Assembly (NCBI GenBank): GCA_030149525.1
Contig: JASBRJ010000210.1
Location: 1 to 40,041, forward strand
Source: a bacterium
GTDB taxonomy: Bacteria > Vulcanimicrobiota > Xenobia > Xenobiales > JADMJV01
Reading direction: 5' to 3'
Length of the DNA: 40,041 bases
The translations under genes were made by a program, and so were the position numbers. Positions within the stretch are counted from its first letter, which is position 1. Each line of letters begins with the position of its first letter. The notes under the pieces were generated by a model. The model did not search any database and was not told where the DNA came from. It saw only the letters and a program-made list of their open reading frames with translations. Shown here one piece after another: positions 4,590 to 29,219 of the stretch.

Positions 4590-5369
4590 TTACGGCAGTC
4601 CGAGCTTCGCCTTGAATTCGTCGCTCCACTGGGATTGCTCTTGAGCCAACTGTTCATAGAACGGTGTCTCTTTCAGGTTCCTCCAGTAGCCCATTATGAT
4701 CCCATCGGGAGCCAACCAGGTCTTTGCAATTGATGCCCCCGGCCCACTAGTGTTCGCACGTTCGGCCACTTCGAACTGCCAAAACTGGTTGTCGACGAAG
4801 ATTGTGACGATCTGCGTTCCATTCGAACTTTCAGTGTGAGTCAAGGGGCTTCCCCAAAGCTCGCCGCGAGGAATTGCGGGGTCCTCCGATATGAAACAGG
4901 GATAGGCCTCCACGGCCGGCGCGTTCTCAGTCAAAAGAATGTTACGAAGTCGTTCCTCGTGCTCTTGGCCAACTGACACCCCCGAGAAAGGCTTGATCGT
5001 CGCAACCGAAATCCGCCATAGAAGGGAGAGCTGAAACAATTTCATCGTCTCATATTCAAGACCTCTGTACTCGAAGCCGTAGGGTCTCTCTAAACCAGCC
5101 ATCCCCAGATTAACTCGGTCTGGAGCGACGAAGTAATTCTTCGATGCGTATCCCTCCAACCGGGACAGCTTAGTTTCGCACTTCTGACAAAGCAGCCGTT
5201 CTCTGTAGCCTTTCTGTTCCAAACGACTGCTCGGCGATTCGGAGCCGTCCATGTGAATCGCCTTAAAGCGGTGCTTTTCGTCATAGAGCGACTCATATAG
5301 GAACTCCGGCAGAACATGGCTGTTCCGCAGCTCTTCTTGGCTTTGACAGAGACGGCATTCGGCATTCAC
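4590..5369 (-). CDS. HNH-like zinc-binding protein, 259 aa
   Basis: The N-terminal 65 residues carry the pattern of degenerate HNH nuclease domains: Cys5-x2-Cys8, then Ser17-His18 in a NSHVLPEFLY block, then Cys61-x2-Cys64 in LLCQKCE, with a conserved KLSRLE helix after it. Four cysteines would hold zinc and the SHVLP histidine would sit at the HNH position. The final catalytic His/Asn is not obvious, so cleavage activity is uncertain. The rest (about 100-259) is an unrecognised alpha/beta region. The start is GTG at 5369. It is the first gene inside the island and is divergent from BREX, sharing the 5370-5550 promoter region. A nuclease or regulatory role beside BREX is inference. Confidence 0.6.
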   Translation of the reverse strand: MNAECRLCQSQEELRNSHVLPEFLYESLYDEKHRFKAIHMDGSESPSSRLEQKGYRERLLCQKCETKLSRLEGYASKNYFVAPDRVNLGMAGLERPYGFEYRGLEYETMKLFQLSLLWRISVATIKPFSGVSVGQEHEERLRNILLTENAPAVEAYPCFISEDPAIPRGELWGSPLTHTESSNGTQIVTIFVDNQFWQFEVAERANTSGPGASIAKTWLAPDGIIMGYWRNLKETPFYEQLAQEQSQWSDEFKAKLGLP

Positions 5370-5550: not shown

Positions 5551-6141
5551 ATGTCGCACAATCCCCCCACAATGAGCCAAACCCAAACAGCCATAGATCT
5601 CGTCCGCCTGATGAAACTCCGCCTGGTCGTTGCGCGATTCGGCGAGATGGACGGTGCCAAGTGGTGGAACACAAATGGCGTATTGGGCCGTAAGGGAAAG
5701 CTCCTGATGAGTCGAGGTTTCCCTAAGACCCATCGATTCGCACAGGCTCGTGTTGTTTTCGCGGTCGCGAAAGCCCGAAGTGCAGAGCTTTTCAACGTTC
5801 CAGGCTGTGCCACCTTATGGCACCCTCCGGCGTCGTTGGAAGACGAATTCGATTCTCGATGGCAGGATTGGCTCGACGAAAGCGACCAATGGGAGAGCTT
5901 TTTTGACCAACTCCATCAACTACCGTCAAGCGATCTGGTCGCCACGCTGGAACATTTCGAACTCATCTCCGAAGAGCAGAAGGAGACAGTCACAAAGCTT
6001 CGCCGCGGTGCGCAGGGTCGTGCAGTTCTCCTCTCCGGAATAGACGAGGTCAGCGACGATGCTTTCACAATCCTGGCTGCAGCATTCTCGCGCGGCGAGG
6101 TCGGCAATCCCACCATTCCTTACGTGAGACTGGCAAGCTAA
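5551..6141 (+). CDS. brxE: BREX protein BrxE
   Basis: The first gene of the BREX operon, 196 residues. The N-terminal core (LRLVVARFGEMDGAKWWNT, then GVLGRKG, then a RGFPKTHRFAQARVVFAVA block) matches what I know of BrxE, a protein of unknown biochemistry described as a component of type 6 BREX. A small Cys-containing segment (VPGCATLWHPP) follows, then an acidic helical C-terminal half. The frame opens upstream to 5422, but family-like sequence begins only near residue 51 of that frame. I chose ATG 5551 because AAGGA lies upstream; ATG 5572 is equally possible. Its stop overlaps the brxA start (TAATG). Its presence with brxL rather than brxD/brxHI is unusual. Confidence 0.75.
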   Translation: MSHNPPTMSQTQTAIDLVRLMKLRLVVARFGEMDGAKWWNTNGVLGRKGKLLMSRGFPKTHRFAQARVVFAVAKARSAELFNVPGCATLWHPPASLEDEFDSRWQDWLDESDQWESFFDQLHQLPSSDLVATLEHFELISEEQKETVTKLRRGAQGRAVLLSGIDEVSDDAFTILAAAFSRGEVGNPTIPYVRLAS

Positions 6142-6923
6142 TGGCAAAACGGAAACGAGCCAATGTGGTCTCTTCCTTCACTATCATCAAAGGGGCGATG
6201 ATCGAGGACACTTACGCCGTATTTCAGGACTGGAACTTCGAGCTCTCTCGCGAAGAGAACCTACGAATCGTCCGCGACTCAAATACGATCGGAGCAACCA
6301 GTGCGGGATGGCTGCGAGATGTCTACAAGGTCCTCCACCGCCGCTTCGACCCGAACGGAGTAGATCGACCGCTTGTCGATTTGGCGAAGGGGCGGTGCAG
6401 CTATGATATGTGGAAGCCGATTCTGCTCTGGCACATGACACGCGATGAGTTCCTGGTCCGGGATTTCCTCATCGAATGGCTCTTTCCACAATACGAAGAG
6501 GGCACTCTGCGAGTAAGAACCGAGGAATTGACCCCTTACCTCCGGGCTCTCCACCAGAGGAAGCTTGTTCAGGAACCCTGGAGCCAAAGTACAATCGATA
6601 GAGTGGCCTCGGGCCTGCTTCGCATGACTACCGACTTCGGCTTGATGAGCGGAAAGTTACACCGAGAATTCGAGTCCTATCATCTCCCCGAGGAAAGCTT
6701 TCTGTACTTGCTCCATGCGATGACAGCTCAGCAGCCGAACGCAAGAGAGGTCATTCACTCGAAGGACTGGCGAATGTACTTGATGCATCCTGACGACGTA
6801 GAACGAGAACTCTTTCGGCTACATCAATTTCGCAAACTTCACTACGAGGCAGCTGGCAGTATCTCACAGCTCACTTTACCTTGCGAATCTGCGGCCGCCT
6901 ACGTCAAGGAGCTCGCTGCATGA
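6141..6923 (+). CDS. brxA: BREX protein BrxA (DUF1819)
   Basis: A 260-residue basic protein of the DUF1819/BrxA family, the small DNA-binding component of BREX. Visible family features are an N-terminal FTIIKGAMIEDTYAVF segment, a central WKPILLWHMTRDEFLVRDFL block, a helical TPYLRALHQRKLVQEPWSQS stretch, and a C-terminal LPEESFLYLLHAM helix. The length suits the family. The start codon overlaps the brxE stop by one base and the stop overlaps the brxB start (ATGA), so translation is coupled along the operon. Confidence 0.88.
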   Translation: MAKRKRANVVSSFTIIKGAMIEDTYAVFQDWNFELSREENLRIVRDSNTIGATSAGWLRDVYKVLHRRFDPNGVDRPLVDLAKGRCSYDMWKPILLWHMTRDEFLVRDFLIEWLFPQYEEGTLRVRTEELTPYLRALHQRKLVQEPWSQSTIDRVASGLLRMTTDFGLMSGKLHREFESYHLPEESFLYLLHAMTAQQPNAREVIHSKDWRMYLMHPDDVERELFRLHQFRKLHYEAAGSISQLTLPCESAAAYVKELAA

Positions 6924-7498
6924 GCGATTGGAAGAAGCGACTCCAGAACGATCTTGAGCCCATCCTGCGCTCCGACGATCCACGACCACAAATAAGTGCC
7001 TACCACGACATGCCTTACGCGATCTTTCGTTACCCTCCCAAGGAAGAGTTCAGCGTTAGGCAGGAAGTTGCGCTCCTCACAACCCGTCTGGAACAGAGTG
7101 GAAAACGGGTCACCCAGATATCGCTGGCCGAATGCCTAGCAGACGCCCTCACCCGTGCGGGACTCACACCCCAAAGAGTTGAGAAGGCCGAGAAGATGGC
7201 TGGTGTCGAGAAAATGGTCGACACAATCCACGCCGTGCTTGCAAAACGGCAACCGCTCGATGACTTGGTCGCTGAACGCTTGCCCCCCGGGTCAGACCCA
7301 TTTCGAGACATCGTTTTCATCACGCGTGCCGCCTCGTTGTTTCCCTTCTATCGGACTTCGTCTCTGTTAGAGCAACTGAAGGGCAAGGTCCACGTGCCAA
7401 GTGTGCTGTTTTATCCTGGCAATCTCGACGGGGCAGCAGGCCTGCAATTTATGGGGGTACTCGATGCCGAGCACAATTACAGACCAAAGATCTTTTGA
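6920..7498 (+). CDS. brxB: BREX protein BrxB (DUF1788)
   Basis: A 192-residue protein of the DUF1788/BrxB family. The start is ATG 6920, which overlaps the brxA stop; the frame is open slightly further upstream, but this start fits the operon overlaps. Family-like features are an early DMPYAIFRYPPKEEF segment with an arginine and proline-rich turn, a central predicted helix pair, DIVFITRAASLFPFYRTSSL, and a C-terminal VPSVLFYPGNLDG before a final NYRPKIF. BrxB is needed for BREX defence in systems that were tested and is thought to bridge other Brx proteins. It is followed closely by brxC. Confidence 0.85.
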   Translation: MSDWKKRLQNDLEPILRSDDPRPQISAYHDMPYAIFRYPPKEEFSVRQEVALLTTRLEQSGKRVTQISLAECLADALTRAGLTPQRVEKAEKMAGVEKMVDTIHAVLAKRQPLDDLVAERLPPGSDPFRDIVFITRAASLFPFYRTSSLLEQLKGKVHVPSVLFYPGNLDGAAGLQFMGVLDAEHNYRPKIF

Positions 7499-7512
7499 AA
7501 GGTAGTCCAAAC

Positions 7513-10500
7513 ATGGCTGAGGGATTCATCAAAGAGCTTTTTTATGGCGATATCTATCGCCCAATCGAAGAAGTAATCAAGGTCGACCAGACCGACGAAC
7601 AAGTCATCAGCGATGAGATCGACGAGTACGTTGTCACCGACGCTATCAAGCATCATTACGCAAGGATCCTGCGGCGTTACTGGGAGACTCCGAACAAGCC
7701 CCACGAGGGGATCGCGGTCTGGGTCTCGGGTTTCTTTGGTTCCGGTAAGTCGAGTTTCGCTAAGATGTTGGGTCTGGCACTAGAGAACCGCTCCATCCTC
7801 GGTGGAAGCGCCGCCGAAGTATTCGGCCAACGTACCGGAGACAATGAACTGAAGGTCCTGCTTAGTCAGATCAGTGAGCACATCCCGACGGACTCAGTGA
7901 TTTTCGACGTCTCTACGGACCGCGGTATCAAGAGCGGTAATCAAACACTCACCGAGATCATGTATAGATTGTTTCTCAAGAGCCTCGGGTACGCTGACGA
8001 CTTAGACCTTGCAGAGCTTGAGATAGCTCTTGAGCAGAAAAATGAACTTGAGCGATTCAAACAGATCTACCTAGAGCTTTTCGATCAAGCCTGGGATGAG
8101 AACAAGGATCTCATCGCGCTTGCAATCGGTGAGGCGAGCCAGGTTATGAATCGACTATTCCCGGAGCGATACCCTTCAGGTGATAGTTGGCAACAGGGTT
8201 TCCAAGATCGGGCCGACATAACCCCCGGGAAACTGGCAGAACGCTGCGAGCAATTGATGGAACGACGGCGCCCAAATCGCAACCTTGTTTTCGTCATTGA
8301 CGAAGTTGGTCAGTTCGTCGCCCGTGACGTCCAGAAAATGCTTGACCTCCAAGCGGTGGTCCAGAGCCTCGGGCGGGTTGGTCGCGGAAAAATTTGGATT
8401 GTCGTCACATCCCAGGAGAAGTTAACCGAGCTCGTCGGCGGCCTAGACAATAAAAGGGTCGAACTCGCCCGCCTCATGGATCGCTTCCCTTTACAGGTCC
8501 ACCTCGAACCCTCTGACATCTCAGAAGTCACCAGTAAGCGCGTTCTTTCGAAGAGCGCCAAAGCGGGCGAGCAACTACGTGCCCTCTATACCGCGCAAAG
8601 TGGGCGACTGACTGCCCACACTACTCTTTCGGCCGATATTCAACTGCCTAATCTCAGCGCTGAAAGGTTCACGGATCTATATCCCTTACTACCCTACCAT
8701 ATCGATTTCATAATCCAAGTCGTTTCAGGCCTGCGGACACAAAGTGGGGCCAGCAAGCATGTCGGTGGCGCTAACCGTACGATCATCAAATTGGCGCAGC
8801 AGCTACTCATCCATGACGCCGTGGGATTGGCAGAGAAGCCAATTGGGGCCCTTGCCCGCGTTGACCAGATTTATGACCTGATCGCCGGAAACATAGCGAG
8901 CGACATTCGCAGTAAGATCAGCGCCATCACGAAGGAGGTCAAGCATCCAATGGCTCCAGGTGTCGCCAAGGCTATCTGCCTTCTTCAGTACGTTAAGAGC
9001 ATCCATCGAACCGCCGAGAACATAGCAGCTGCTCTGCATCCAGCGGTGGATGCAGATTCTCTCCTTCCTGACGTTAAGGAGGCTTTGCGGCAACTCGTCG
9101 ACGCACAAAAAGTGCGCTTGACGGACGGACAGTATCGAATCCCAACGCCGGCCGAGGACGACTGGGAGACAACAAGGCGCAAGTTCGAGCCTAAGTTGGG
9201 CGAGATCAACCGAATCCACGCCGAGATGGTAACGTCGCTATGGGAACCAAAACCAACCTACACTTTTTGCGAGGTCAAGGCTTTTAAAGGTGGTCTCTTG
9301 GTTGACGGCAGAGTCATTGTAGACGCCGATATTCCGTTCCACATCATTTTGGCCGGGGAGGACACATACTCTCAGCAAGAGGGGGAAGCGCGAAGTCGAA
9401 GCCAATCGGAATCGAAAGGGGTTTTCTGGGTAGTAGCTATTAGCGATGGGATTATGCGTGAGACCGTGGAGGTCTTCCGTTCCAAGGAAATACTTTCTCG
9501 CAAACAGCGAAACGCCAAAACCAAGGTGGAAACGTCTCTTGTCTCTGAGGAGAAAATTCGGCTCCGAGGCCACGAAGGCGAGCTACGGCGGCTGGTCAAG
9601 GAAGCCATGCTCGCCGGCGCCATCTATTTCCGTGGCAACGATAGGAGCCCTGACGAGACGATCACCAGCGTTGGGCAGGCCGCAACTCGCGTCCTTGGGC
9701 AGGTACTTCCAGACGTCTACAATCGGTTCCACGAAGGGGCAGCTCGCGTATCTTCAAAGGATTTGGCAGCTTTGATGACCGACGAGAATCTACGCGGGCT
9801 TCCCCCCGTTTTTCTGCAACTTGAACTAATCCGGGATCAGAACGGCCATCCTGTGATAAATACGGAACTTGGACCACTCAAAGAGATCATGGGTCGGATC
9901 GATACAAGGACAAGCTACGGTGAAACAGCAAATGGGCGTTACCTCGCCGATGAATTTGCGAAAGAACCGTTCGGTTGGGACCTGGACGTCGTCCGGCTCT
10001 TTGTGGTCACCCTCCTTCGCGCTGGACTGATAAAGGCTACTAGTAAAGGAGCCGTGATTGAGTCAGCACTGAGTGTCGACGCCCGAAATGCCTTTACGGC
10101 TAACAATCTCTTCAAGGCATGCTCCTTCCAGAAGAACGTTTCAGGGACTGAGATCGGCGACTGGATAGAAGCTGACGAAGCCTTTCAATGCGTGTTTGGT
10201 AAGCAGCTTCCAGAAATGCAGGCGAGTTCTGTCGCCAATGCTATTCGTAGTGAAGTTGGCTCGGTCATCCCGGAATTACATGGTATCCTGAACTGTGTGC
10301 TAAGCCACCAACTTCCAGGCGAAAGTATCTTGGGTGAAGTTCTGGACCTGGTCCATTCTATCCGCGCCGGTAGCGACGACGACGCCATCCTCAATTTTAA
10401 CGGAAGTCACAAGGCTTTAAGAGACGGGATAAAATACGCTGCCGATCTCGCAAAGGCGCTCACGGAGCCGAGTCTGTTCGACCTTAGGCGTGCGCGTAAA

Positions 10501-11052
10501 GCCCTCGGTGCAACCTGGCCGACTCTCCAGTCAGAGCCGGACCTGCCGGCTGAACTTGAGGAAAAGGCACAAGAGCTCTCTCACCTTATGGCAAGCTCAA
10601 ATTTCTATCGTGAACTCGCTTCTATTGAACAATACACTTCAGCTATTGAAAAGGAGTACAATCAGCGATTTCAGGCCGCAGCCTCTGAGCGATCACAAAC
10701 CTATCAGCAGGCAATCGTTGAACTCCAAAGCCAGAACGCCTGGAGCGAGCTGAATGATGAGCAGAAAGCTATTATTGTTGGCCCACTCGAATGCCGAGCG
10801 ACGCCTGTAGTACCATCAAATACCACAATCCCTCTGTTGCGCTCGGAGCAAAGCGCATGCCCCCACCATTTCAAAAGCGCCGTGCAAGCGATGCACGAAC
10901 TCATTGACGGGGAGAAGTTGGTGACCTTAAAGATTTCGGACTTCTTCAGTGATCGGGTGGAAACTCCTGAGCAACTGGAGGCTTCCCTCGAACGTCTAAA
11001 ACAGGAGTGCCTGAAGCTCATTGGCTCGAACAAGAAGGTCCTGGTTCAATAA
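7513..11052 (+). CDS. brxC: BREX ATPase BrxC/PglY
   Basis: A large P-loop protein of 1179 residues, the usual size for BrxC. The Walker A motif GFFGSGKSS has Lys79. The Walker B is LVFVIDEVGQF with Asp263-Glu264. An AAA-like sensor segment IWIVVTSQEKL follows, and a long helical DUF6079-like region fills the remainder, ending in a coiled-coil-rich tail (about 1000-1179). I chose ATG 7513, which has AAAGG ten bases upstream, over an in-frame TTG at 7495 that would overlap brxB. BrxC is required for both host methylation and phage exclusion and probably supplies ATP-driven remodelling. Next comes pglX after 2 bp. Confidence 0.92.
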   Translation: MAEGFIKELFYGDIYRPIEEVIKVDQTDEQVISDEIDEYVVTDAIKHHYARILRRYWETPNKPHEGIAVWVSGFFGSGKSSFAKMLGLALENRSILGGSAAEVFGQRTGDNELKVLLSQISEHIPTDSVIFDVSTDRGIKSGNQTLTEIMYRLFLKSLGYADDLDLAELEIALEQKNELERFKQIYLELFDQAWDENKDLIALAIGEASQVMNRLFPERYPSGDSWQQGFQDRADITPGKLAERCEQLMERRRPNRNLVFVIDEVGQFVARDVQKMLDLQAVVQSLGRVGRGKIWIVVTSQEKLTELVGGLDNKRVELARLMDRFPLQVHLEPSDISEVTSKRVLSKSAKAGEQLRALYTAQSGRLTAHTTLSADIQLPNLSAERFTDLYPLLPYHIDFIIQVVSGLRTQSGASKHVGGANRTIIKLAQQLLIHDAVGLAEKPIGALARVDQIYDLIAGNIASDIRSKISAITKEVKHPMAPGVAKAICLLQYVKSIHRTAENIAAALHPAVDADSLLPDVKEALRQLVDAQKVRLTDGQYRIPTPAEDDWETTRRKFEPKLGEINRIHAEMVTSLWEPKPTYTFCEVKAFKGGLLVDGRVIVDADIPFHIILAGEDTYSQQEGEARSRSQSESKGVFWVVAISDGIMRETVEVFRSKEILSRKQRNAKTKVETSLVSEEKIRLRGHEGELRRLVKEAMLAGAIYFRGNDRSPDETITSVGQAATRVLGQVLPDVYNRFHEGAARVSSKDLAALMTDENLRGLPPVFLQLELIRDQNGHPVINTELGPLKEIMGRIDTRTSYGETANGRYLADEFAKEPFGWDLDVVRLFVVTLLRAGLIKATSKGAVIESALSVDARNAFTANNLFKACSFQKNVSGTEIGDWIEADEAFQCVFGKQLPEMQASSVANAIRSEVGSVIPELHGILNCVLSHQLPGESILGEVLDLVHSIRAGSDDDAILNFNGSHKALRDGIKYAADLAKALTEPSLFDLRRARKALGATWPTLQSEPDLPAELEEKAQELSHLMASSNFYRELASIEQYTSAIEKEYNQRFQAAASERSQTYQQAIVELQSQNAWSELNDEQKAIIVGPLECRATPVVPSNTTIPLLRSEQSACPHHFKSAVQAMHELIDGEKLVTLKISDFFSDRVETPEQLEASLERLKQECLKLIGSNKKVLVQ

Positions 11053-11054
11053 TT

Positions 11055-14000
11055 ATGGACAAGGCGACAAGAAACAACATCCAAAGAACCACTCAGCAAG
11101 CTAGGCGCTTGCTTGAGGATGAGTTCCGCGAGCAACTTGAGGGGACATTTGACATCCTGCTCGACGGCACGATAGCGGCTGAAGCTGGCCCCCATCTTTC
11201 AGAAGCTCAACGGGTTACTCGAGAAAAGCTTATAGCGGTTGTTGGGTACAAAATCGATGCCGGATTCAAACCTGGCGATGCCGTGGCATCCTACCTCCGA
11301 GAGGTGGCTTTTACCACTCTGAATCGCTTTGCTGCCCTCAAGATGCTCGAGGCCCGCGAACTGGTACAAGAGTGTGTTTCCAAAGGGGAACAATCGAGTG
11401 GCTACAGGGAGTTCATAGCACTAGCACCAGGCCTAGTTTCGCTTGACGACAACGGCTTCCGGCTCTACATAGAAACCATCTTTGACGAAGTCGGACAAGA
11501 GGTCCGTGTCCTCTTTGACCGCAAAGACGTTGCTTGCATTCTTTGGCCACGCCGCCAGGCACTGCTGGCATTGCTCGAGCTCTTAAACGATCCTCTGCTG
11601 GCACCCATCTGGGCGGAAGACGAAACTATCGGCTGGATTTACCAGTATTTCAACGCAGACGATGAACGGACGCGGTTGAGAGCTGAAAGCCCATCCCCGC
11701 GAAACACACAGGAACTTGCCGTCAGAAACCAGTTTTTCACCCCACGGTATGTAGTGCAATTTCTGACAGACAACACATTAGGACGCACCTGGTATGAGAT
11801 GATGCAAGGCGAGACAAAGCTCAGTACCCTTAGTTTCCTAATCCGCCGTCCAAACGAGGTCTTTCTTGGGGAGCAAGAACAGGGGTGCGAGTCTAGCGTT
11901 GCGGAACTCGGTACAAGAGAGTTGCTGAACCAACGACTCAACGTTTCATTTCGAGCCAAGAAAGACCCTCGCGACATACGCATCCTTGACCCGGCTTGCG
12001 GCTCTGGGCACTTTCTTCTATACGCTTTTCAACTCTTATTTACGATTTATGAGGAAGCCTGGGCTGATAAGGATGCGGCGCCATCCCTAGACAGTTCTCA
12101 CACGCTCCGGCAGGACTATCCCGACTTGGCATCCTTTCGCCACGAAATACCCGGACTAATTCTCAGCCAGAATCTTTACGGTGTGGATATTGACCCTAGA
12201 GCTGCGCAGATCGCTGCTTTAGCGCTTTGGATGCGAGCGCAACGAGGCTATCGTGAACTAGGGGTGTCGCGTGAGGCAAGACCGCAAATTGTAAAAACCA
12301 ACATTGTCGTAGCTGAACCCATCCCTGGTGATGCGGCGTTAGTCGAGGAATTCGCCGTAACGTTGGACCCGCCGGTCCTCGGGGAACTATTCAAAAAGAT
12401 TATTGCAGAGATGAGAAATGCAGGAGAGCTAGGGTCGCTACTTAGTATCGAGGAGTCTCTCGCTCGTGCTGTTGAGGACGCCGAGATCGCTGATCGTCAG
12501 GGCCGCCTTTTCGCCAAAGGGGTTAATGACCCTCAATTCTGGGACACCGCAGAAAAGAACATACTTGCGACCTTAAGAGAATTCGTTGAATCATCCGTCG
12601 GGGCAGCCCGAACCCGACGGCGGCTCTTCTCAGAGGATGCCGCGCAAGGCGTGGCTTTGATTGAACTTCTGCGTGAGCGTTTCGATGTAGTGCTGATGAA
12701 CCCACCCTTTGGTGAGGCCACCAAACGAACCGCCGATGTTATTGATCGGACCTGTCCTAATTGGGGAAAAAATCTCGCGTGTGCCTTCGTTAGCCGAGCC
12801 CGGCAGCTAACCATTGCGAGGGGGATGAATGGAACCATCATAGACAACTCGACGGCGATCCGTAGTTCCTACGAAGAATTCCGGAGAACAGAATACCTCT
12901 CAGAAGATGCTTCGATAACCTCTCTCCTTACACTGGGTTGGGGCGTCTTGGACGCTTATGTAGAGGTAGCGGCGATAGTTCGTGTGATCGGCAACTGCGA
13001 CGATTCTCTTGTTATCGGAGCGAATTTCGAAGGAGTGGATGTTACTGAACACTCAAGGCACCTCAAGCGACTGGCACAGTTTCAAGATCTTGATGCAATG
13101 CGGGCTTTCAATCGAGATAAAATCCACAAGTTGCCAAACTCAGTATTGGATCTTGATTGGCCCCCATTCTTGGTGGAGCTTTTTGCGGCGCATTCGAGCT
13201 TGGAGAAAGAAGGACTGTCGTCATATCAGGGTCACGCACTTGAGGCGGCACGACACTATCGACTGTTTTGGGAACTTCCACCGAGTTCTCCAATCTCACA
13301 CGATGGTGAATGGGCGTTCGCCTTCAAAGGCGGTGATTATTCTCCCGGATATCTATCTGATTCTTATGTGGCGCTCGTCGGACCGAAGTACAGCCTAGTG
13401 CCTGCGAAGTCGTCTAACGTGCTAAGAAATCGAGACTTCCATTTCCAAGCAGGGGTCGGTTACGGCAAGCGAGGCCTCTACGTCGACGCCCAGCCTTTAA
13501 GAGCTTCATCTTTCTTTACTCACGAGGGGATGGCATTCGTATCGGACTCAGAATCTGAACGGCTATTCCTCCTCGCTCTAATAAACTCAGACTTTTTCAA
13601 CTTCGGTATCAATAAATATTGCGGTCAACACAAGCAGAGCGGATATGTGAACCTTTTTCCTGTCTGCAATTATGAAAAAAGAAACGATACCCAGCTTGGC
13701 CAGACGATGCGTGAATTCCTGAAGCTCAAACTCAAATGGAGCAGCACTGACGAGACTGATTACCTCTTCACTGCGCCGGCATTCGTTGCGTTCAGCCAAC
13801 AAACTGAGTTACCAGAGAGGCTTTCCGAAGTCGAGAGACTTCACGACAGTGACCTAACCAGATTGGAACAGCTTTGGGACGATATGAACGCAGGGATCTA
13901 CCGAGCATATTCAATTCATTGCGATGACCAAGCCACCATCACTTCGTATTGTACCGACCGCCCTAAATTGGAAATGCGTAACTGGCCGTCGACAGGGAAA

Positions 14001-15065
14001 TCCCCGGTCGCTCTTCGTAGTACAATCTTGAAGGAAACTCTGTCATATCTTCTCGGCCTTGCATTTCGGCGTTTTCATCCGCGAGATATAACAGCAGTGA
14101 ATTGCCGTGACGCCCTCCAGGATCCATTTGCTCCACTGCCCAGCAATAGACCTTGCATTGCACCTCTTCCTTCAGAAGCCCGAATAATCGTTGATGACCC
14201 AGGACACCCGAATGATATGGCGACGGAATTAAAAGGCCACGTCAACGCGGTTCTTTCTGAAGACAGCGATGCATTCGAGGCGCTATTCTGCGCTGAAGTA
14301 GGTTGCGATTCCATTCGATCTCATTTTGCCAATCCTTCCGGTTTCTTTGATTTTCATTTGCAACAGCATTCTCGAGGAACTCGGAAAGCACCGATTTATT
14401 GGTGGCTCTCGACGCCCTCGCGGGGCTATAGCGTTTGGCTTTCTTACCACTCTCTCACGCGGGATACAATTTTTTCTTTAGTCAACGATTACGTTGCTCC
14501 GAAACTCCGGCACGAAGAGGCCAAATACACGAATTTAGCCGGAGAGGCCGCCACAGACCCCTCAAAGAAGCAACGAATTGGCTTAGAGAAGCAAGAGGGT
14601 TTCCTTGAGGAGTTACGTGCCTTCAGCGCAGAGCTCTCGCGAGTTGCGCCGCTATGGCGGCCTGCGCTCGACGACGGCGTCAATATCAACTTCGCGCTCC
14701 TTCATCGTGTCGTGACGCACCCCACTTGGCAAAAAGAGTGCAAGAAGAACTGGGACAAATTATTGGCTGGAGACTATGACTGGTCCCATCTGGCGATGCA
14801 CCTTTGGCCTGAACGCGTTGTATCCAAATGCGCCACGGATCACAGCCTCGCTCTAGCGCACGGCCTCGAAGACATATTTTGGACTCAAGATAGTAAAGGG
14901 AAGTCGCATCGCCAAGAAGTCGAGCTTGCCGTTATCGACCAAATTATTAAGGAGCGAACATCGTTGTCGGTCAAAGCGGCGTTGCGTGACCTAGTGTCAG
15001 CTCCAACTCTGTCCAGTGGACCCGGAGCTAAGAGCAACAGGTCTAAGAAAAAGTCAAAACGATGA
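11055..15065 (+). CDS. pglX: BREX adenine-specific DNA methyltransferase PglX
   Basis: A 1336-residue class I methyltransferase, slightly longer than typical type 1 PglX (about 1200). The SAM-binding motif is ILDPACGSGHFLLYAF with Asp312. The catalytic motif is VVLMNPPFG, NPPF at 549-552, marking an N6-adenine methylase of the gamma type. A helical N-terminal region (1-300) precedes the fold. The C-terminal 700 residues hold the specificity and recognition part with aromatic-rich segments such as FKGGDYSPGYLSDSYVALVG. PglX methylates one strand of the BREX site and so marks self DNA. The start is ATG 11055, three bases after the brxC stop. The stop overlaps pglZ (ATGA). Confidence 0.93.
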   Translation: MDKATRNNIQRTTQQARRLLEDEFREQLEGTFDILLDGTIAAEAGPHLSEAQRVTREKLIAVVGYKIDAGFKPGDAVASYLREVAFTTLNRFAALKMLEARELVQECVSKGEQSSGYREFIALAPGLVSLDDNGFRLYIETIFDEVGQEVRVLFDRKDVACILWPRRQALLALLELLNDPLLAPIWAEDETIGWIYQYFNADDERTRLRAESPSPRNTQELAVRNQFFTPRYVVQFLTDNTLGRTWYEMMQGETKLSTLSFLIRRPNEVFLGEQEQGCESSVAELGTRELLNQRLNVSFRAKKDPRDIRILDPACGSGHFLLYAFQLLFTIYEEAWADKDAAPSLDSSHTLRQDYPDLASFRHEIPGLILSQNLYGVDIDPRAAQIAALALWMRAQRGYRELGVSREARPQIVKTNIVVAEPIPGDAALVEEFAVTLDPPVLGELFKKIIAEMRNAGELGSLLSIEESLARAVEDAEIADRQGRLFAKGVNDPQFWDTAEKNILATLREFVESSVGAARTRRRLFSEDAAQGVALIELLRERFDVVLMNPPFGEATKRTADVIDRTCPNWGKNLACAFVSRARQLTIARGMNGTIIDNSTAIRSSYEEFRRTEYLSEDASITSLLTLGWGVLDAYVEVAAIVRVIGNCDDSLVIGANFEGVDVTEHSRHLKRLAQFQDLDAMRAFNRDKIHKLPNSVLDLDWPPFLVELFAAHSSLEKEGLSSYQGHALEAARHYRLFWELPPSSPISHDGEWAFAFKGGDYSPGYLSDSYVALVGPKYSLVPAKSSNVLRNRDFHFQAGVGYGKRGLYVDAQPLRASSFFTHEGMAFVSDSESERLFLLALINSDFFNFGINKYCGQHKQSGYVNLFPVCNYEKRNDTQLGQTMREFLKLKLKWSSTDETDYLFTAPAFVAFSQQTELPERLSEVERLHDSDLTRLEQLWDDMNAGIYRAYSIHCDDQATITSYCTDRPKLEMRNWPSTGKSPVALRSTILKETLSYLLGLAFRRFHPRDITAVNCRDALQDPFAPLPSNRPCIAPLPSEARIIVDDPGHPNDMATELKGHVNAVLSEDSDAFEALFCAEVGCDSIRSHFANPSGFFDFHLQQHSRGTRKAPIYWWLSTPSRGYSVWLSYHSLTRDTIFSLVNDYVAPKLRHEEAKYTNLAGEAATDPSKKQRIGLEKQEGFLEELRAFSAELSRVAPLWRPALDDGVNINFALLHRVVTHPTWQKECKKNWDKLLAGDYDWSHLAMHLWPERVVSKCATDHSLALAHGLEDIFWTQDSKGKSHRQEVELAVIDQIIKERTSLSVKAALRDLVSAPTLSSGPGAKSNRSKKKSKR

Positions 15066-17611
15066 GCCACCCTTTTCACGCCTACGTAGCCACTCAGCTC
15101 TCAGCGCTGCTGTCCAAACGCCGAATCGTGGTTTTCTACGACCCCCGTGAGGAGTTCTTGCCGTTTTTCGACGAGCTGGAGTCAATTGAGTCCCCCCAGG
15201 CGAACCTTTCTCGTTTGATGTTACGTGACGACCCCATCTTTTTTGCTCGCTACACAGGCTCATTCTTCGCCCTCAAGGCAGCTGCCGAGCCTATTATGAG
15301 CAAGAATTCTCCAGAGCCTCTGATTCTTTACATTCCAGGGGAGCAGCGTGATCGGCGAACCTCAGTCCTCATGGAATTTGAAGAGGCAGGCGACTGTTAT
15401 GAGCCCCAACTAAAGAGACTGGCTCTCAATCTCCTGCGCAAACGCTTCACGGACGGCGACATTGACGAGATACTTGCCCCCGAGAACCTCAGCTACAACG
15501 ATATCGTCAGTGTTCTCAAGCAACGAAAGGGGGCGGACGCCTCCCTCCTCAGAGTCGTACTGGGCGACGGCTCGAGCGAAGAACTCTTGGCGAAATGGCT
15601 CTCCGATCAAGGCTATGATACGTCGCTTGATAGCAAAGGTGCCTCCGTGGAATTGTTCAAGCTGGTCAAAGCTCGTCTGGGCCTTGAACTTGTGCCAGAG
15701 ACATCTCTAGTAAAGGCCCGGCACCAAGTAGCCAGGTTTATTCTCATCAACGAATTCCGCCATGACCTGACCTGCGATTCGCCCGACTCGCTAGTGGTCA
15801 TCCCTACGCCCCCCGGCAAAGACGAACAGAAGCGAATTCTTAGTCTCGCAGATATTCTTCGCTCCCGATACCGGGATGCATATTCAGCCATGGCGGACAC
15901 CTGCGAAGCCGAAATGAGCCTTGGGGAACTCGACGTTCCGCCAAAGTGCCTCGGGCGAATCGATACCTTTCGTTTCGAAGAGCGCCTCCTTCTTGACTAC
16001 GCCACCAACCTGGTTATGCAGGAGAAATACGACGAAGCACTCGCTTTAGCACTTGCTCGAGGGAAGAGCTTCTGGGTTGACCGAGATTTTCACCGGCTTG
16101 TCCAATGGGAGATGCTACGCTATCTAGCCGAACTCGGAACTCAAATCCTTCGGATCAGACCTTGCCTCAAAAAGATGGGCGGCAAGGCAGATGATTGGAT
16201 TCAGGCATACGCTGCTACGGATGGCTGGCATGAAGTTGACCGGGCACAACGGACTCTTGAGCACTGGGTCGCAAACATGGACGACGAACCCACCGGGGAA
16301 CTGAATCAGGCCCTGGGCCTCCTTCGCCGAGCCCACGAGAATCTACTCAAGCAGATGGCCCAGGGCTTTACCGACGCCCTGGTAAACAGCAACTGGTCCG
16401 TTCCCGGTGTTTTGCATCAGACGAAGATCTTTCCCACGTGCGTCGAGAAGGCGGGTGGCCGCGTGGCCTATTTCTTAGTCGATGCCATGCGATATGAACT
16501 GGGTGCGGAACTCGCCGAGCTTCTCTCGGAAACGGAGGATCTAAAGCTAGTCCCTGCCGTGACCGTCCTCCCATCAATCACCCCACTCGGAATGGCTGCA
16601 TTGCTCCCCGATGCCTCATCAAGTTATTCCGTAGTCGAACATAAGGGCAAGTTGGCGGCCCGCATCGATGGTAAAGTAATGGCGCAACTCAAAGACCGGC
16701 AGAACTTCCTGTCTGCCCGCCGGCCCGAGTCAAAAGACCTTAACCTCGGCGACGTTCTGCAACGTAGTACTGGAGCACTCAAAAAGAGCCTCGGTGACAC
16801 GCCTCTTTTAGTCGTCCGTTCGCAATCGATCGATGCCCTCGGCGAAATGGATGGCGGCTTGTTGGCCCGTCAGATTATGGGAACAATCGTAGGCAATGTT
16901 GCCCGCGCTGTACGCAAGCTTGGCCGCGTTGGCTTCGAGTACTTCGTCATTGCAGCCGACCATGGCCACCAGTTCTCACTTCGTAAAGATAGCGACATGA
17001 CTATGGAAAAGCCCGGCGGGACGAAGGTAGATCAACACCGACGCTGCTGGGCAGGTCAAGGGGGCCAGACTCCAGCCGCATGTGTACGAGTGAAAGGTTC
17101 GGAACTCGGATACGATACCGACCTCGATTTCGTTTTCCCCAAAGGCTTAGCGATTTTTAAAACCGGAGGGGACCCGGCCTTTCACCACGGTGGAGTTAGC
17201 CTACAGGAGATGGTCATCCCCGTTCTCACCCTCAGAGTGCCTTCCGCCACCAAACTCGCGCCCGCAGGATCCACAACCTTACTTCTGGATGGGTATCCTG
17301 AGACGTTAACTAACCGAACATTTGGAATGAAGGTCCAATTGCAAAACCTCTCTCTCCTTGCGGAAAACGTCGTCACCACGCGCCTTGTACTTCTGTCTGA
17401 AGGCGAGGAGGTCGGCGGCACAGGCATGGCAATTGACGCTGAATTTGAGAGGGCTACGGGCAGACTTACTTTGAGTCCGAACAAGTCCGCCGATGTGGCA
17501 ATGCTCCTGACTAGGGACAATGTCAAAACAGTCCGTATCGTGGCATTAGACGCGGATACTGACGCAGTGCTTGCCCAATCTGAAGAAATACCTGTAAAAC
17601 TGGGGTGCTAA
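15062..17611 (+). CDS. pglZ: BREX alkaline-phosphatase-like protein PglZ
   Basis: An 849-residue PglZ-domain protein. Two metal-binding parts of the alkaline-phosphatase fold are visible: FLVDAMRYELGAELAELL with Asp474 and VIAADHGHQFS with Asp633-His634-x-His636; a further conserved histidine pair is in DPAFHHGGVSLQEMVIPVL. PglZ is essential in BREX systems and probably a metal-dependent phosphodiesterase or nuclease; its exact substrate is not settled. The N-terminal region (about 1-300) is helical and the last about 120 residues are beta-rich. Its start overlaps the pglX stop. The brxL start codon follows its stop with no gap. Confidence 0.93.
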   Translation: MSHPFHAYVATQLSALLSKRRIVVFYDPREEFLPFFDELESIESPQANLSRLMLRDDPIFFARYTGSFFALKAAAEPIMSKNSPEPLILYIPGEQRDRRTSVLMEFEEAGDCYEPQLKRLALNLLRKRFTDGDIDEILAPENLSYNDIVSVLKQRKGADASLLRVVLGDGSSEELLAKWLSDQGYDTSLDSKGASVELFKLVKARLGLELVPETSLVKARHQVARFILINEFRHDLTCDSPDSLVVIPTPPGKDEQKRILSLADILRSRYRDAYSAMADTCEAEMSLGELDVPPKCLGRIDTFRFEERLLLDYATNLVMQEKYDEALALALARGKSFWVDRDFHRLVQWEMLRYLAELGTQILRIRPCLKKMGGKADDWIQAYAATDGWHEVDRAQRTLEHWVANMDDEPTGELNQALGLLRRAHENLLKQMAQGFTDALVNSNWSVPGVLHQTKIFPTCVEKAGGRVAYFLVDAMRYELGAELAELLSETEDLKLVPAVTVLPSITPLGMAALLPDASSSYSVVEHKGKLAARIDGKVMAQLKDRQNFLSARRPESKDLNLGDVLQRSTGALKKSLGDTPLLVVRSQSIDALGEMDGGLLARQIMGTIVGNVARAVRKLGRVGFEYFVIAADHGHQFSLRKDSDMTMEKPGGTKVDQHRRCWAGQGGQTPAACVRVKGSELGYDTDLDFVFPKGLAIFKTGGDPAFHHGGVSLQEMVIPVLTLRVPSATKLAPAGSTTLLLDGYPETLTNRTFGMKVQLQNLSLLAENVVTTRLVLLSEGEEVGGTGMAIDAEFERATGRLTLSPNKSADVAMLLTRDNVKTVRIVALDADTDAVLAQSEEIPVKLGC

Positions 17612-19642
17612 ATGAGTAAAAATATTGCTGAACGTGATGAACTGGATGCGAAAGCGAACCGCGTCTTCGCTGGTAAAGTTGTCCGCAAAGATCTGGTCCG
17701 CAAAGTAAAAGTTGGGGCCAATGTGCCAGTCTTCGTTCTAGAGTATCTGCTCGGTAAGTATTGCGCCTCGTCCGACGAGATGGCCATTCAAATGGGGCTA
17801 CAAGTTGTCAACGATACCCTCGCTGACAACTACATCCGCCCAGACGAGTCCACCAAGGCTCAGAGCCTGGTAAAGGAACGCCAGGCGCATACTTTCATCG
17901 ACAAAATCAAGGTTCGAATCGTTGATTCGCGCTACTGGGCCGATGTAACGAACTTCGGCCACAAGAACGTCCACATCCCTGATCACTACGTCAGGGACTT
18001 TGACCGTCTCCTCACCGGCGGGATCTGGGCCCAAATCGATATGAGTTGGGACGACACAGACGAAAGAGCACCCTTCTACATCTCCAAACTCACCCCAATT
18101 CAACTCGCCACATTTAGCCTGGCCGAATACCGTACCGGCCGCGCGCAGTTCACAACCGATGAATGGATGGACTTCATCCTTCGCGGTATGGGATACGAAC
18201 CAGCCGAGATGGACCGCCGACTGAAGCTAAACTTTCTTACCCGACTCGTGCCACTCTGCGAACGTAACTACAACCTGATTGAGCTAGGACCACGCGGTAC
18301 CGGAAAAAGCTATGCGGTCCAAGAGCTTTCACCATATACGGCGCTACTGACCGGCCCGACAACCGTCGCCAACCTATTTGGGCACATGAGTGGCCGACAC
18401 AAGGGCATGCTTCAAATTTGGGATGTCGTCGGATTCGATGAGGTCGCTGACCTGCAGAAGATGCCAAAAGAGGTCATCACAACTCTAAAAACCTATTGTG
18501 AGTCAGGCCAGTTTCAGCGAGGCCAGGAAGCCATGGCTGGATATGCCAGCGTGGCTATGTTTGGAAACACTCAACAGCCTATAGATGTCATGGTCCAGAC
18601 CGGGCACCTTTTCGCGCCATTACCCGACACCATCCGAGATGACATGGCTTTCATCGACCGATTGCACTTCTATCTTCCCGGATGGGAGATTCCGAAAATG
18701 CGAAACGAACACTTTACAGATCATTACGGCTTTGTCGTCGACTACCTCGCAGAGGCCCTTCGTGAGCTTCGAAAACACAATTTCACTGAGATCATCGATC
18801 ATCACTTTTCGCTCGGGTCTCACCTGAACGCGCGAGACCGAAAAGCCGTCAGAAGAACCGTTTCTGGACTGATCAAGATCCTCCATCCTCATGGCGAGGT
18901 GTCCAGGGAAGACCTCGAAGAGCTACTAAGCCATGCCATCGAGGGTCGCAGACGAGTCAAAGAACAACTTAAAAAGATGGGTTCTTTCGAGTACTATCAC
19001 ACCTCATTCAGCTATGTTGATACGGAAAACGGAGAGGAGCACTTCGTTGGAGTACCGGAACAAGGTGGCCGTGACCTGATAGCTGCCGACCCTCTCCCTC
19101 CAGGGACCGTGTATAGTGCCTCCGTTAGCGGGGATGGTACCGTTGGGCTTTATCGAATCGAAGTGAGCGTCTCATCTGGGACCGGCAAGCTCAAACCGGC
19201 TGGGGGGGTAAGTGGCATGATGAAAGAGTCCATCAAGAGATCTTTCAGCTATTTGCTCTCAAATAAGAGCACCTTTGGAATCGCCCGAGAAATTGACACA
19301 GCGGATATCCACGTTGAGGTTATCGACCTACTGGGCAACAAAGTCGAGGCTGAGCTCGGTGTCGGTTTCTTTGTCGCTACATATTCCGTCCTCCGCAAAT
19401 CGCCAATTCACCCGGCTCTTATAGTCCTGGGAGACATGAGCATTCAAGGCAATATCAAACCTGTGCGATCACTGGTGGAACCCCTCCAGATTGCCATGGA
19501 CAACGGAGCCAAAAAGGTACTCATTCCGATCGAGAACAAGCGGAGCTTCTTCGACGTGTCCGCTGAGGTGCTAGAGAACGTCGACCCCGTATTCTACGGT
19601 GACGTGCGGCAGGCTGCATTCAAAGCACTGGGCCTCAACTGA
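17612..19642 (+). CDS. brxL: BREX Lon-like AAA+ protein BrxL
   Basis: A 676-residue AAA+ protein, the last gene of the operon and the hallmark of type 1 BREX. Walker A is LGPRGTGKSYAV with Lys232. Walker B is DVVGFDEVAD with Asp276-Glu277. A pore-facing HMSGRHKG segment and an FGNTQQ sensor segment fit the family. The C-terminal domain (about 500-676) resembles Lon protease. The motif around the Lon catalytic serine reads EAELGVG (581-585, no Ser) and the catalytic lysine position is in SLVEPLQ (Val622), so protease activity is not expected. BrxL is thought to assemble as a ring on DNA and block phage replication. It ends 150 bp from the convergent Mrr-like gene. Confidence 0.92.
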   Translation: MSKNIAERDELDAKANRVFAGKVVRKDLVRKVKVGANVPVFVLEYLLGKYCASSDEMAIQMGLQVVNDTLADNYIRPDESTKAQSLVKERQAHTFIDKIKVRIVDSRYWADVTNFGHKNVHIPDHYVRDFDRLLTGGIWAQIDMSWDDTDERAPFYISKLTPIQLATFSLAEYRTGRAQFTTDEWMDFILRGMGYEPAEMDRRLKLNFLTRLVPLCERNYNLIELGPRGTGKSYAVQELSPYTALLTGPTTVANLFGHMSGRHKGMLQIWDVVGFDEVADLQKMPKEVITTLKTYCESGQFQRGQEAMAGYASVAMFGNTQQPIDVMVQTGHLFAPLPDTIRDDMAFIDRLHFYLPGWEIPKMRNEHFTDHYGFVVDYLAEALRELRKHNFTEIIDHHFSLGSHLNARDRKAVRRTVSGLIKILHPHGEVSREDLEELLSHAIEGRRRVKEQLKKMGSFEYYHTSFSYVDTENGEEHFVGVPEQGGRDLIAADPLPPGTVYSASVSGDGTVGLYRIEVSVSSGTGKLKPAGGVSGMMKESIKRSFSYLLSNKSTFGIAREIDTADIHVEVIDLLGNKVEAELGVGFFVATYSVLRKSPIHPALIVLGDMSIQGNIKPVRSLVEPLQIAMDNGAKKVLIPIENKRSFFDVSAEVLENVDPVFYGDVRQAAFKALGLN

Positions 19643-19792: not shown

Positions 19793-21091
19793 TCAACTGC
19801 CTATTCCACTTATCTTAACTATTCCATGAGGCCATGCGGAATCTCGACCAGACGGACCCCCAGTAAGCTTCCCCGCTACTCTGGTCCCATAGACCTCATA
19901 ACCGAGATTCTCTAGCTCCTTGATGTACTTCGTCCAAGTTCTTCTACATTCCAGATGATCGGTCGGCGACACGTCCTGATATATATCGAGCCACTCCTGG
20001 AACGAGGTCTGTAGATGTACGGCAACCTCCTCCGCCTGGTCATCAATATCTTCAGGCAGAAGAAACTCGAAGCTGAGAACCCCGACGAAAGCCTTGTTCC
20101 ACAAGGCTCGACCATTTCGGCATTTCTCTGCAGCGTGCAGCCCTAGCGGCAACTTGGTTCGAATCGGTTCTTCCGATTTCGAGGAGGGCTGACGGGAGCG
20201 CTTTAGAGACTCGAATCTCTGGATAACTTCAAAGCGTAACTGTTCAAGCACGTGTAGCGCTTCTCTGTCAAAACAAACCATGGAGAACTGGTCGCCTTGA
20301 GGCTGACTCGTCTTTACTTTCCCTGATGTCTCCAGAGTCGTGTATGCGTATCGTAGCTCCACCAGGCCATCTATAATCTCGCCTAACGCAGCCCTTTTGG
20401 CAGGGTCTTTGAGCTCAGATCGAGGTGAAATGCGACGTATGATCGTTCCGTCTCGCAGGCGCCATACACCTGTACTAAGTGCCTCTATCGTGTCCGTGAT
20501 CGCTTTCTTGAAGTCAGGGAAACTGACTTCGGCGTAGAGAGGTGTGGTAAAAGCCGGACGCTCAAAGCATGCTGACATCTGCTCCAAGATTTCCGTATCG
20601 CTTTTCGGCCGAGACCACGCTTCAATCTCATCCTCCACCTCAGGAAACGTTACGCCCTCTACAAATCGCTTGATCAAAAGAGGCTGGTCTCTCCTTAAGC
20701 GTTCTTCAAACTCAGCACCGCTCCAAACCTCAGTTTCAGAAATCCCCTTAGAATCAACATACTTCTTGATTTTGGAACGCATGTCGGCTGAGATCTTGCC
20801 TCCCGAGATCAGAATGAAACGCTCAGGAGTCGTGCCACTCTTCAGGATCTTGTCAAGGTCGGAGGTAACCTTCTTAAATCTCAGGCTCTTGTGATTGGCG
20901 CACTGCACGACCAGAAGCTCGCCACTCTCTCGAGTCCCGACGATATCACGTCCCCCATCACTTCCACTTTGACCGATCCACTCGAGGCTTGTCCAAGCCT
21001 CCGTATTGAGAAGATACGCGTAGCAGAGCCGCTCGAACTCGACGCCGCTGCGGTCTTCAAAATGAATAGGCATCACGCTCTTTTGTATCAT
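19793..21091 (-). CDS. Mrr-like restriction-endonuclease-domain protein, 432 aa
   Basis: Residues about 10-110 have the fold pattern of Mrr-type PD-(D/E)xK nucleases: VEFERLCYAYLL, then GSDGGRDIVG with Asp49, then LLVVQCANHKSL with Gln63. Lys at the canonical QxK place is replaced (Ala65), with Lys68 three residues on, so the active site is atypical. The remaining 320 residues are helical and unrecognised. I chose ATG 21091 because a GGAGG lies seven bases upstream; a longer open frame to 21178 overlaps the upstream gene. It lies 22 bp after the SEC-C protein gene, so the two form an operon. It is convergent with brxL. Confidence 0.65.
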   Translation of the reverse strand: MIQKSVMPIHFEDRSGVEFERLCYAYLLNTEAWTSLEWIGQSGSDGGRDIVGTRESGELLVVQCANHKSLRFKKVTSDLDKILKSGTTPERFILISGGKISADMRSKIKKYVDSKGISETEVWSGAEFEERLRRDQPLLIKRFVEGVTFPEVEDEIEAWSRPKSDTEILEQMSACFERPAFTTPLYAEVSFPDFKKAITDTIEALSTGVWRLRDGTIIRRISPRSELKDPAKRAALGEIIDGLVELRYAYTTLETSGKVKTSQPQGDQFSMVCFDREALHVLEQLRFEVIQRFESLKRSRQPSSKSEEPIRTKLPLGLHAAEKCRNGRALWNKAFVGVLSFEFLLPEDIDDQAEEVAVHLQTSFQEWLDIYQDVSPTDHLECRRTWTKYIKELENLGYEVYGTRVAGKLTGGPSGRDSAWPHGIVKISGIGS

Positions 21092-21113
21092 TCCAAATCC
21101 TCCAGCAGCAATT

Positions 21114-23474
21114 TTAGCACCGACAACATTTTTTGAACTTCTTACCGCTACCGCAAGGGCAGGGCGCATTTCGGCCAATCTTCTTTTGTTTGCGCAGTCT
21201 TGCCGACTTCAAGCGGTTCACCCTCTTATGAGTGCCGAGGAGTTTTTCAAAGGAATCCTCTCCTTTATCTTCATCCAAGGACACATCTGGGACCTGCATC
21301 TGGGCGTCTAGGTATTCCTGTGCCACTGTCAGACCCAAGCTCTCGACAAGCTTCATTGCATTTAATCTGAAGTGAGGCACCCGCACCTTGCATTCTGGGA
21401 AGATGAAATTCGAGTAATAGTGCTCCATTGCTCGCCAGTAATGGCCGTGGACAGTGTCTTCCTCGAGGTACTTTCTGAGATCTAAGCCTGTACATCGATC
21501 ACCTCTCCACCCAAAGTACTTGTCGCCACATATTTCAATGGTGCCAACCTCAACGAAAGAAAGTAGCTCGGCGGCCCCCCTAACAGGGTGCCCATCCAAA
21601 CGAAGACCGACGAACATTCGGTTGGAGACGACTATCCCTGTAGTGAGGGGGATGGCCACAGGTATGTCTGCCCCTAACTTACTCCCTAAATAGGAGCGAA
21701 ATTTCCCACTATCCACCTGCCTCAGATTACTAAGTTGTTGAGACGCTTTTCGAATCGCGTCCAGGCTTGTCATTGCTTCCTGTTCATCAACGGGCAACAG
21801 TGAGTTCTTGCACTCAAAAGCGAAGAGATGGTCGTCCATCAACACAAGAACATCGATTTCCCCTGACAAGGACGAAGCATATTCAACGCTATGCCAAGCT
21901 TCAAAGCCGAAAGACTTAAAGGCTGTCGCGATCCCTGGGGCTAGTGGGTCCGTCGTGCCATCTGCATGGATTCTATCATTCACGACCTTGAAAGAATTCC
22001 GCAAAAAGTTGCTGTTTCCAAATATATTTGTAGGTATTAAGAACTCTTGACCGTCCCCACACTCTATCAGAGGCCGATAGTGAAGGTCCTTATGATTGGA
22101 ACTACTTGCGGAAAAAAACTCCATCGCAAGTGGAGCCTTCGCCCCCCCCAAGAGTTGCTTAAAGAATCTATCCAGATTCCGCCGGGTCCAGGCTGGCAAA
22201 AGAGAATTCAGTACAACCTGAGGCCTTGAGATCACCAATGGCTCAAGAATCTCCAGCATTGTGAATCGAAGAATCTGTAAGGCCCTAGATACCTTCATTA
22301 CATCTTGTAGTCGGAGAGTTCTTGACTGTTCCATTGGGAACGCCAAGATATCATCTTCCGAAGCCATGAGGTCACGTGAGGCTTGCATTAAATTGAGGAT
22401 TTCCTCTTGGAAGTGTCCCCCTTCTGGACTCCCCGTGAAGCCATCAACAATTAAAGAAGGTAATGGAAAACCTATAACAATCCTTGGGATAGGCTCTTCA
22501 TGAAATTTAATCGCTCCGATCTTATATAAGATCTCTTTCAGTTTGCAACAGTAGGTAGTTATCGAAAGAGCTTGGTCATCAAGCCATCTTGCTACGTTAA
22601 CTTGTTTTTGCTGCAATGTTAGTATGTGGCCGAGTTCGTAGGCTCGCAAAAACTCTTTAGAGGGCGAAGTAAGCGTGTAAGTATTTGTCGTCTGCTCGTG
22701 AGTCAGAGTATACCCGTACCTATCCACCAATAGCTCCCATCGACGGTAGGCCACCAAGTGCGCTGCAGCTATTAAGATTGCGAAATAAGTTCCATCGGAG
22801 TGAGCCCCTTGATTTATCGGTGGATTGGAGCTGAGTTCCCCGAACGTATCGACGTAGATAGCTAGAATCGTCGAAAACGCATCTGCAAAGTCGATCGCGC
22901 TAAAGAAAGTCGGTGATGTCGAATCACCATCATTGGAAGATTCCCAGTGTCCAGCAGTCTGCCGCATAGAAAACATCTCAACCGTCGCAAGCAGAGTCTT
23001 GAGACCTGACTCTTTCTCCGCTTCCAGAAACCGGATGACCTCAGAGTTGGCCCGGCAAGCGGATTTTGCAATAGTGTGCATATGCGCCACACTCCGCAAG
23101 TAATCAAGGGTCTTCTGATCAAGGGCTTCCCCCATAGTCAGCGCCTCCGTTGCAGCGTGTGTCGCAGGGTTCCAGTTATAGTGAAAGCGCGACAGTCGCA
23201 GCAAGCCCTTCTGTTGAACCCTTTCGATAAACGTTTGGCCACCAACGCTCAGACCGAGTGAGAATAGGTTGGCGACGTCAAGCGACTGGCCCGCCTGCAT
23301 CGCCTGCTTGCACTTCTGGAAAAGCTTCTTTACGTCTTCGGGGGATAAAAGTAACCCCTGGGAACTTATCTCAAATAGTTCTTTTGAGCGGACCCAAGAG
23401 CCATGAGGCATTTTCCTTATCAGATCCTGAAGCACTCTATCCTCTTCGGAGGCCTTTCTTGACCGGCCTCTCAC
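21114..23474 (-). CDS. large nuclease-like protein with C-terminal SEC-C motif, 786 aa
   Basis: The last 21 residues (IGRNAPCPCGSGKKFKKCC) are a complete SEC-C zinc motif, as found at the end of SecA and many other proteins. Around residues 535-560 the sequence SSLSGEIDVLVLMDDHLFAF followed by ECKN matches the PD-(D/E)xK layout, with Asp541, Glu554 and Lys556 as possible catalytic residues. The rest is helical and unrecognised. Several SEC-C plus nuclease-like proteins are known in defence loci, but I cannot name a family. The start is a GTG at 23474 with no clear Shine-Dalgarno; Met22 (23411) is an alternative. A TATACT lies 14 bases upstream of the GTG. It is the promoter-proximal gene of the pair. 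Confidence 0.6.
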   Translation of the reverse strand: MRGRSRKASEEDRVLQDLIRKMPHGSWVRSKELFEISSQGLLLSPEDVKKLFQKCKQAMQAGQSLDVANLFSLGLSVGGQTFIERVQQKGLLRLSRFHYNWNPATHAATEALTMGEALDQKTLDYLRSVAHMHTIAKSACRANSEVIRFLEAEKESGLKTLLATVEMFSMRQTAGHWESSNDGDSTSPTFFSAIDFADAFSTILAIYVDTFGELSSNPPINQGAHSDGTYFAILIAAAHLVAYRRWELLVDRYGYTLTHEQTTNTYTLTSPSKEFLRAYELGHILTLQQKQVNVARWLDDQALSITTYCCKLKEILYKIGAIKFHEEPIPRIVIGFPLPSLIVDGFTGSPEGGHFQEEILNLMQASRDLMASEDDILAFPMEQSRTLRLQDVMKVSRALQILRFTMLEILEPLVISRPQVVLNSLLPAWTRRNLDRFFKQLLGGAKAPLAMEFFSASSSNHKDLHYRPLIECGDGQEFLIPTNIFGNSNFLRNSFKVVNDRIHADGTTDPLAPGIATAFKSFGFEAWHSVEYASSLSGEIDVLVLMDDHLFAFECKNSLLPVDEQEAMTSLDAIRKASQQLSNLRQVDSGKFRSYLGSKLGADIPVAIPLTTGIVVSNRMFVGLRLDGHPVRGAAELLSFVEVGTIEICGDKYFGWRGDRCTGLDLRKYLEEDTVHGHYWRAMEHYYSNFIFPECKVRVPHFRLNAMKLVESLGLTVAQEYLDAQMQVPDVSLDEDKGEDSFEKLLGTHKRVNRLKSARLRKQKKIGRNAPCPCGSGKKFKKCCRC

Positions 23475-29183: not shown

Positions 29184-29219
29184 TTGTCACATTTAGAAAT
29201 TTGCTATAAAATTCTAAAT
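29184..29219 (+). promoter_or_regulatory. AbiE promoter with perfect operator palindrome
   Basis: ATTTAGAA (29191-29198) and TTCTAAAT (29212-29219) form a perfect 8-bp inverted repeat. The -10 lies between the arms (TATAAA 29205-29210, or TAAAAT 29207-29212), and -35 TTGTCA is at 29184-29189. The ATG follows the right arm directly, so the transcript would be leaderless. AbiEi antitoxins are known to repress their own promoter by binding inverted repeats, which fits. Confidence 0.6.

Follow-up and report, generated by a model that had tools for sequence, protein, structure and literature searches.

A BREX operon that begins with brxE and ends with brxL, and its probable place in the branch of types 1/5/6 that carries brxE

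Among the closest described relatives of the operon reported here are two kinds of BREX system: canonical type 1, as represented in E. coli, Salmonella, Acinetobacter and Mesobacillus plasmids (loci L138-L143 and L145), which has no brxE, and type 6, as represented in Aulosira (L144), Azospirillum (L146) and Pseudanabaena (L147), which combines the order brxE-brxA-brxB-brxC-pglX-pglZ and a long BrxA with brxD-brxHI. Types 5 and 6 have since been folded into type 1, and BrxE is stated, in a repetition of the founding study, to be exclusive to type 6 (PMC12839542). We analysed a 40,041-nucleotide stretch of bacterial DNA (the window) from a host genome assembled in 398 contigs (8.27 Mb), basing the type definitions on the same paper, on NCBIfam models and on annotated controls. 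Seven frames, all open, lie on its + strand between 5551/5572 and 19642:

5572..6141, + strand: brxE, 189 aa, alternative start at 5551 (NF033447, 147.7 bits, cut-off 40)
6141..6923, + strand: brxA, 260 aa, long form (PDLC02454, 306 bits; PF08849)
6920..7498, + strand: brxB (PDLC02459, 190 bits; PF08747)
7513..11052, + strand: brxC, AAA+ ATPase with Walker motifs (NF033441, 846 bits, cut-off 400)
11055..15065, + strand: pglX (brxX), adenine methyltransferase with NPPF (NF033452 BREX-1 PglX, 543 bits, cut-off 500)
15062..17611, + strand: pglZ, alkaline-phosphatase fold (PF08665, 67 bits)
17612..19642, + strand: brxL, AAA+ plus Lon-like domain (TIGR02653, 978 bits, cut-off 628)

The seven-gene order, the names and the intactness proposed in a first-pass annotation are borne out by profiles, open frames and motifs. 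PADLOC profiles score 306 bits for BrxA, 190 for BrxB, 1622 for BrxC, 1156 for PglX, 868 for PglZ and 935 for BrxL; Walker A/B motifs are found in BrxC (GFFGSGKS) and BrxL (GPRGTGKS, DVVGFDEV), NPPF in PglX, and the metal-site motifs DAMRYE, DHG and HHGG are all present in PglZ. Alignment with the related locus L059 makes 5572 the likelier start of brxE, with 5551 possible and 5422 a mechanical start of its open reading frame. At five of the six junctions the genes overlap or are separated by no more than 2 nt (TAATG at brxE/brxA, ATGA at brxA/brxB and pglX/pglZ, 0 nt at pglZ/brxL, 2 nt at brxC/pglX). The exception is the 14-nt gap between brxB and brxC, so that the translational coupling proposed for the operon holds at most junctions and not strictly at all of them.

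Upstream, a gene of 259 aa with cysteine pairs near its start (CRLC, CQKC) is divergent from brxE (4590-5369, - strand), and its product matches no family in profile searches. Downstream, two - strand genes converge with brxL (19793-23474): the first protein, of 461 aa, weakly matches the N terminus of an Aga-type restriction endonuclease, and the second, of 786 aa, has a weak NERD match and a SEC-C match. Both are possible auxiliary nucleases, as judged by these sequence matches. Further on are a phage-type integrase (PF00589; 25382-26515, + strand) and a DUF6088/AbiEi-like gene (28989-29816), and with these nearby the operon may be located in a mobile or defence island.

The operon encodes BrxC, PglX and PglZ alongside BrxA and BrxB, the core that defines types 1, 5 and 6. 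Like canonical type 1, it runs brxA-brxB-brxC-pglX-pglZ-brxL with brxL at the operon end, its PglX passes the BREX-1 cut-off, and its BrxL scores 637 bits against the solved BrxL 8EMC. Unlike canonical type 1, it contains brxE, its BrxA is about 60 residues longer, its PglZ is under the type-1 cut-offs, and its BrxC, PglZ and PglX fall outside the canonical clade. With type 6 it shares the gene order from brxE to pglZ and the long BrxA, but brxL stands where type 6 has brxD-brxHI, and its BrxE (NF033448, 45.5 bits against 80), PglX (NF033455, 356 against 900) and PglZ (NF033443, 253 against 400) are all under type-6 cut-offs. True type-6 controls exceed them, with 169 bits for the BrxE of L045 and 240 for that of L144, whose PglX and PglZ score 2237 and 1059 with the BREX-6 models. 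The PglZ of the window is in fact under every curated PglZ cut-off (also TIGR02687, type 1A, 119 against 270, and NF033450, 72 against 400), as are those of the eight sister loci tested. The first gene, which had been taken as a type-6 marker, therefore belongs to the BrxE family but fails the type-6 equivalog, and the reported combination, in which a BrxE-family protein is joined to BrxL while BrxD-BrxHI is missing, stands: no BrxHI-like gene lies within the window, no window frame matches BrxD, and both are absent from the operon. On another contig the host genome has its only BrxD-like ATPase above the cut-off (L150, G000:C215:7348-8658; NF033438, 451 bits against 350), which is stand-alone, with no BREX gene and no BrxHI helicase in its neighbourhood. 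Type-6 BrxE genes (NF033448) are found in several genomes of the window's family and order (L006, L045, L047, L048, L049 and L050), so both kinds of BrxE circulate there.

We identified other brxE...brxL operons by scanning genome contigs with a two-sequence PglX alignment, which left 80 loci; a single-protein BrxC query of the same contigs gave no matches. Among the scanned loci, the window and its relatives, 61 have brxA, brxB, brxC, pglX and pglZ together, and 52 of these 61, the window counted, have both brxE and brxL, a proportion that is no prevalence figure because the loci were selected by PglX likeness. Many of the remaining loci are truncated at contig ends. A tblastn search with the window BrxE returned no plasmid or phage relative, and a more typical BrxE (that of L133) found three plasmids. 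Plasmid records add four operons (NC_019941.1, NZ_CP094538.1, NZ_CP053905.1, which is fragmented, and NZ_CP100458.1), one of them hosted by the archaeon Halomarina. The total is thereby brought to 56, and in 56/56 the order E-A-B-C-X-Z-L is kept on one strand. The plasmid operons share the genes and order of the window but are distant in sequence, some with extra genes between pglX and pglZ, and NCBI labels them gene by gene as BrxE family protein, BrxA or DUF1819, BrxB, brxC, methyltransferase, PglZ domain and brxL, the methyltransferase being annotated as BREX-1 PglX in two of the four. A DUF262/GmrSD-like gene lies between pglX and pglZ in L078, L082, L093 and L126, and also in Acinetobacter canonical type 1.

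Hosts, by record title, include Pseudomonadota, Bacteroidota, Chloroflexota, Verrucomicrobiota, Spirochaetales, Bacillota, Cyanobacteriota, Aminicenantes and KSB1, and in the window's own taxonomic order one genome (G010) has a contig pair resembling a brxE...brxL operon split by assembly. The architecture is thus not novel: it recurs across many phyla and in one archaeon, and is already annotated gene by gene. The first-pass annotation had held that it fits neither type 1 nor type 6, and that many known type 1 systems already carrying brxE at this place would speak against this; the 56 operons of the same order, several of them annotated by NCBI, do so. All 51 of 51 members of our BrxE alignment match NF033447, and for the BrxE family in NCBI's definition the statement that only type 6 has BrxE fails. 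The layout is uncommon in evenly drawn genomes (centre genome excluded): in Pseudomonadota BrxL is present in 16/397 and BrxE above the cut-off in 0/397, while in Flexilinea's phylum BrxL is above the cut-off in 25/300 and BrxE is present in two, in one of which (G533) brxE and brxL share a strand and lie 12-13 kb apart. The brxE...brxL layout is therefore a widespread yet minority form.

We built trees of BrxC, PglZ and PglX (FastTree, from MAFFT alignments after trimming, with type 1 and type 6 references). In all three, the canonical type-1 operons without brxE, a small set of 7-8 loci, form one clade with support 1.0, and the brxE-bearing loci, type 6 included, are all placed opposite it. 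The window fails to group with the canonical operons. Type 6 forms its own clade with support 1.0 in each tree, without the window, and is placed either next to the brxE/brxL loci or among them, at a position that varies by tree and has partly weak support. Near neighbours of the window in the trees are L059, L054 (Chromatiaceae), L085 (Microvirga), L091 (Planctomycetales), L083 (Competibacteraceae) and L109, whose operons show no substantial difference from it, although contig ends truncate those of L083 and L109; the first five have the BrxE sequences closest to that of the window (44-54% identical). The trees proposed in the first-pass annotation thus separate the window from canonical type 1 and also place it outside type 6. 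The idea of a distinct subtype remains partly tenable through this separation and the longer BrxA, but not as a new layout.

The length of BrxA follows the same division, with a core of 239-264 residues in the 56 brxE/brxL loci and 183-199 in 7 loci without brxE, an association whose strength owes something to the selection of loci by their similarity in PglX. A three-part BrxA has been described in a subset of type 1 (PMC12839542). One locus, L052, is an exception, with a long BrxA and no detectable brxE, and the length of BrxA, like the presence of BrxE, may do no more than mark descent. We further find that BrxE distances correlate with those of BrxC (rho 0.90, reached by 0/500 permutations), PglZ (0.89), BrxB (0.89), BrxA (0.88) and BrxL (0.87), kinship being uncorrected in these values. 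This divergence in step with the core genes indicates a resident part and not a passenger, and the trees together with the co-divergence with BrxC, PglZ and BrxL argue that BrxE is resident in one BREX lineage. As read from its sequences, the brxE-bearing lineage would end in either of two last modules, BrxL or BrxD-BrxHI.

We consider it probable that the window encodes a BREX operon of type-1 chemistry, belonging to the branch of types 1/5/6 that carries brxE, with BrxE serving as an adaptor with the long BrxA. The AlphaFold model of BrxE is mostly helical (pLDDT 94.4), and a fold search against solved structures found no match, neither a nuclease nor another known fold. Our best guess is that BrxE acts in the sensing/modification complex as a small adaptor without enzymatic activity, and not as an effector, a reading suggested by its co-divergence with the core, its co-occurrence with the long BrxA and its tight coupling to brxA, the two genes overlapping by 1-4 bases in many loci. 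PglX with BrxA, BrxB, BrxC and PglZ would methylate an asymmetric host site, and the same complex, with BrxE acting alongside the long BrxA, would recognise unmethylated phage DNA; BrxL, as an AAA+ motor that binds DNA, and PglZ, as a nuclease, would then halt phage replication.

A wider reading, which we hold tentatively and as somewhat short of favoured, is that the brxE/brxL operons are a deep undescribed lineage marked by BrxE and long BrxA, of which type 6 is a branch that swapped BrxL for BrxD-BrxHI. If true, BrxE would be no type-6 hallmark, but an obligatory subunit of the brxE-bearing half of the type 1/5/6 group. The window itself is one more example, and the residual interest lies in the whole brxE-bearing lineage. 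Its operons show that BrxE cannot simply be equated with type 6, and raise the question of what a small, brxA-adjacent protein with no solved structural relative does in a system that canonically lacks it.

BrxE might instead be a dispensable accessory or anti-counter-defence protein travelling with the operon, given that the canonical type 1 systems of E. coli, Salmonella and Acinetobacter function without it (PMC12839542). This seems unlikely, since brxE keeps a constant place in every brxE/brxL operon found and diverges with the core genes, unlike the DUF262/GmrSD-like genes, which come and go. Many canonical type-1 operons have the transcription repressor BrxR, a WYL-domain protein, ahead of brxA, and the position of brxE is that of the WYL/regulator protein in L139, L140 and L145, as it would be if BrxE were a regulator in place of BrxR; we reject such a replacement as improbable, because some twelve of the brxE-bearing loci have a WYL gene directly in front of brxE, so that one does not stand in for the other, and because BrxE matches no Pfam family, whether HTH or of another kind, and belongs to a mildly acidic family (median pI 6.2). 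Least probable, and mostly refuted, is a recent chimera, formed when a true type-6 system shed brxD-brxHI and acquired the brxL of a type-1 operon: PglZ does score highest with the type-6 model and genuine type-6 BrxE genes occur in the window's order, but three proteins miss the type-6 cut-offs, the fully supported type-6 clade excludes the window in three trees, and BrxL distances track those of BrxC and PglZ across brxE/brxL loci (rho 0.93), hence no recent graft.

PglX behaves differently from the other genes: its distances track theirs poorly in brxE/brxL loci (rho about 0.6), and those of BrxE against PglX give a rho of 0.59, far below the remaining genes. In many of these loci pglX is also broken into several frames (for example L085, L112, L126 and L133), and we read the poor tracking and the split frames as specificity gene exchange or phase variation.
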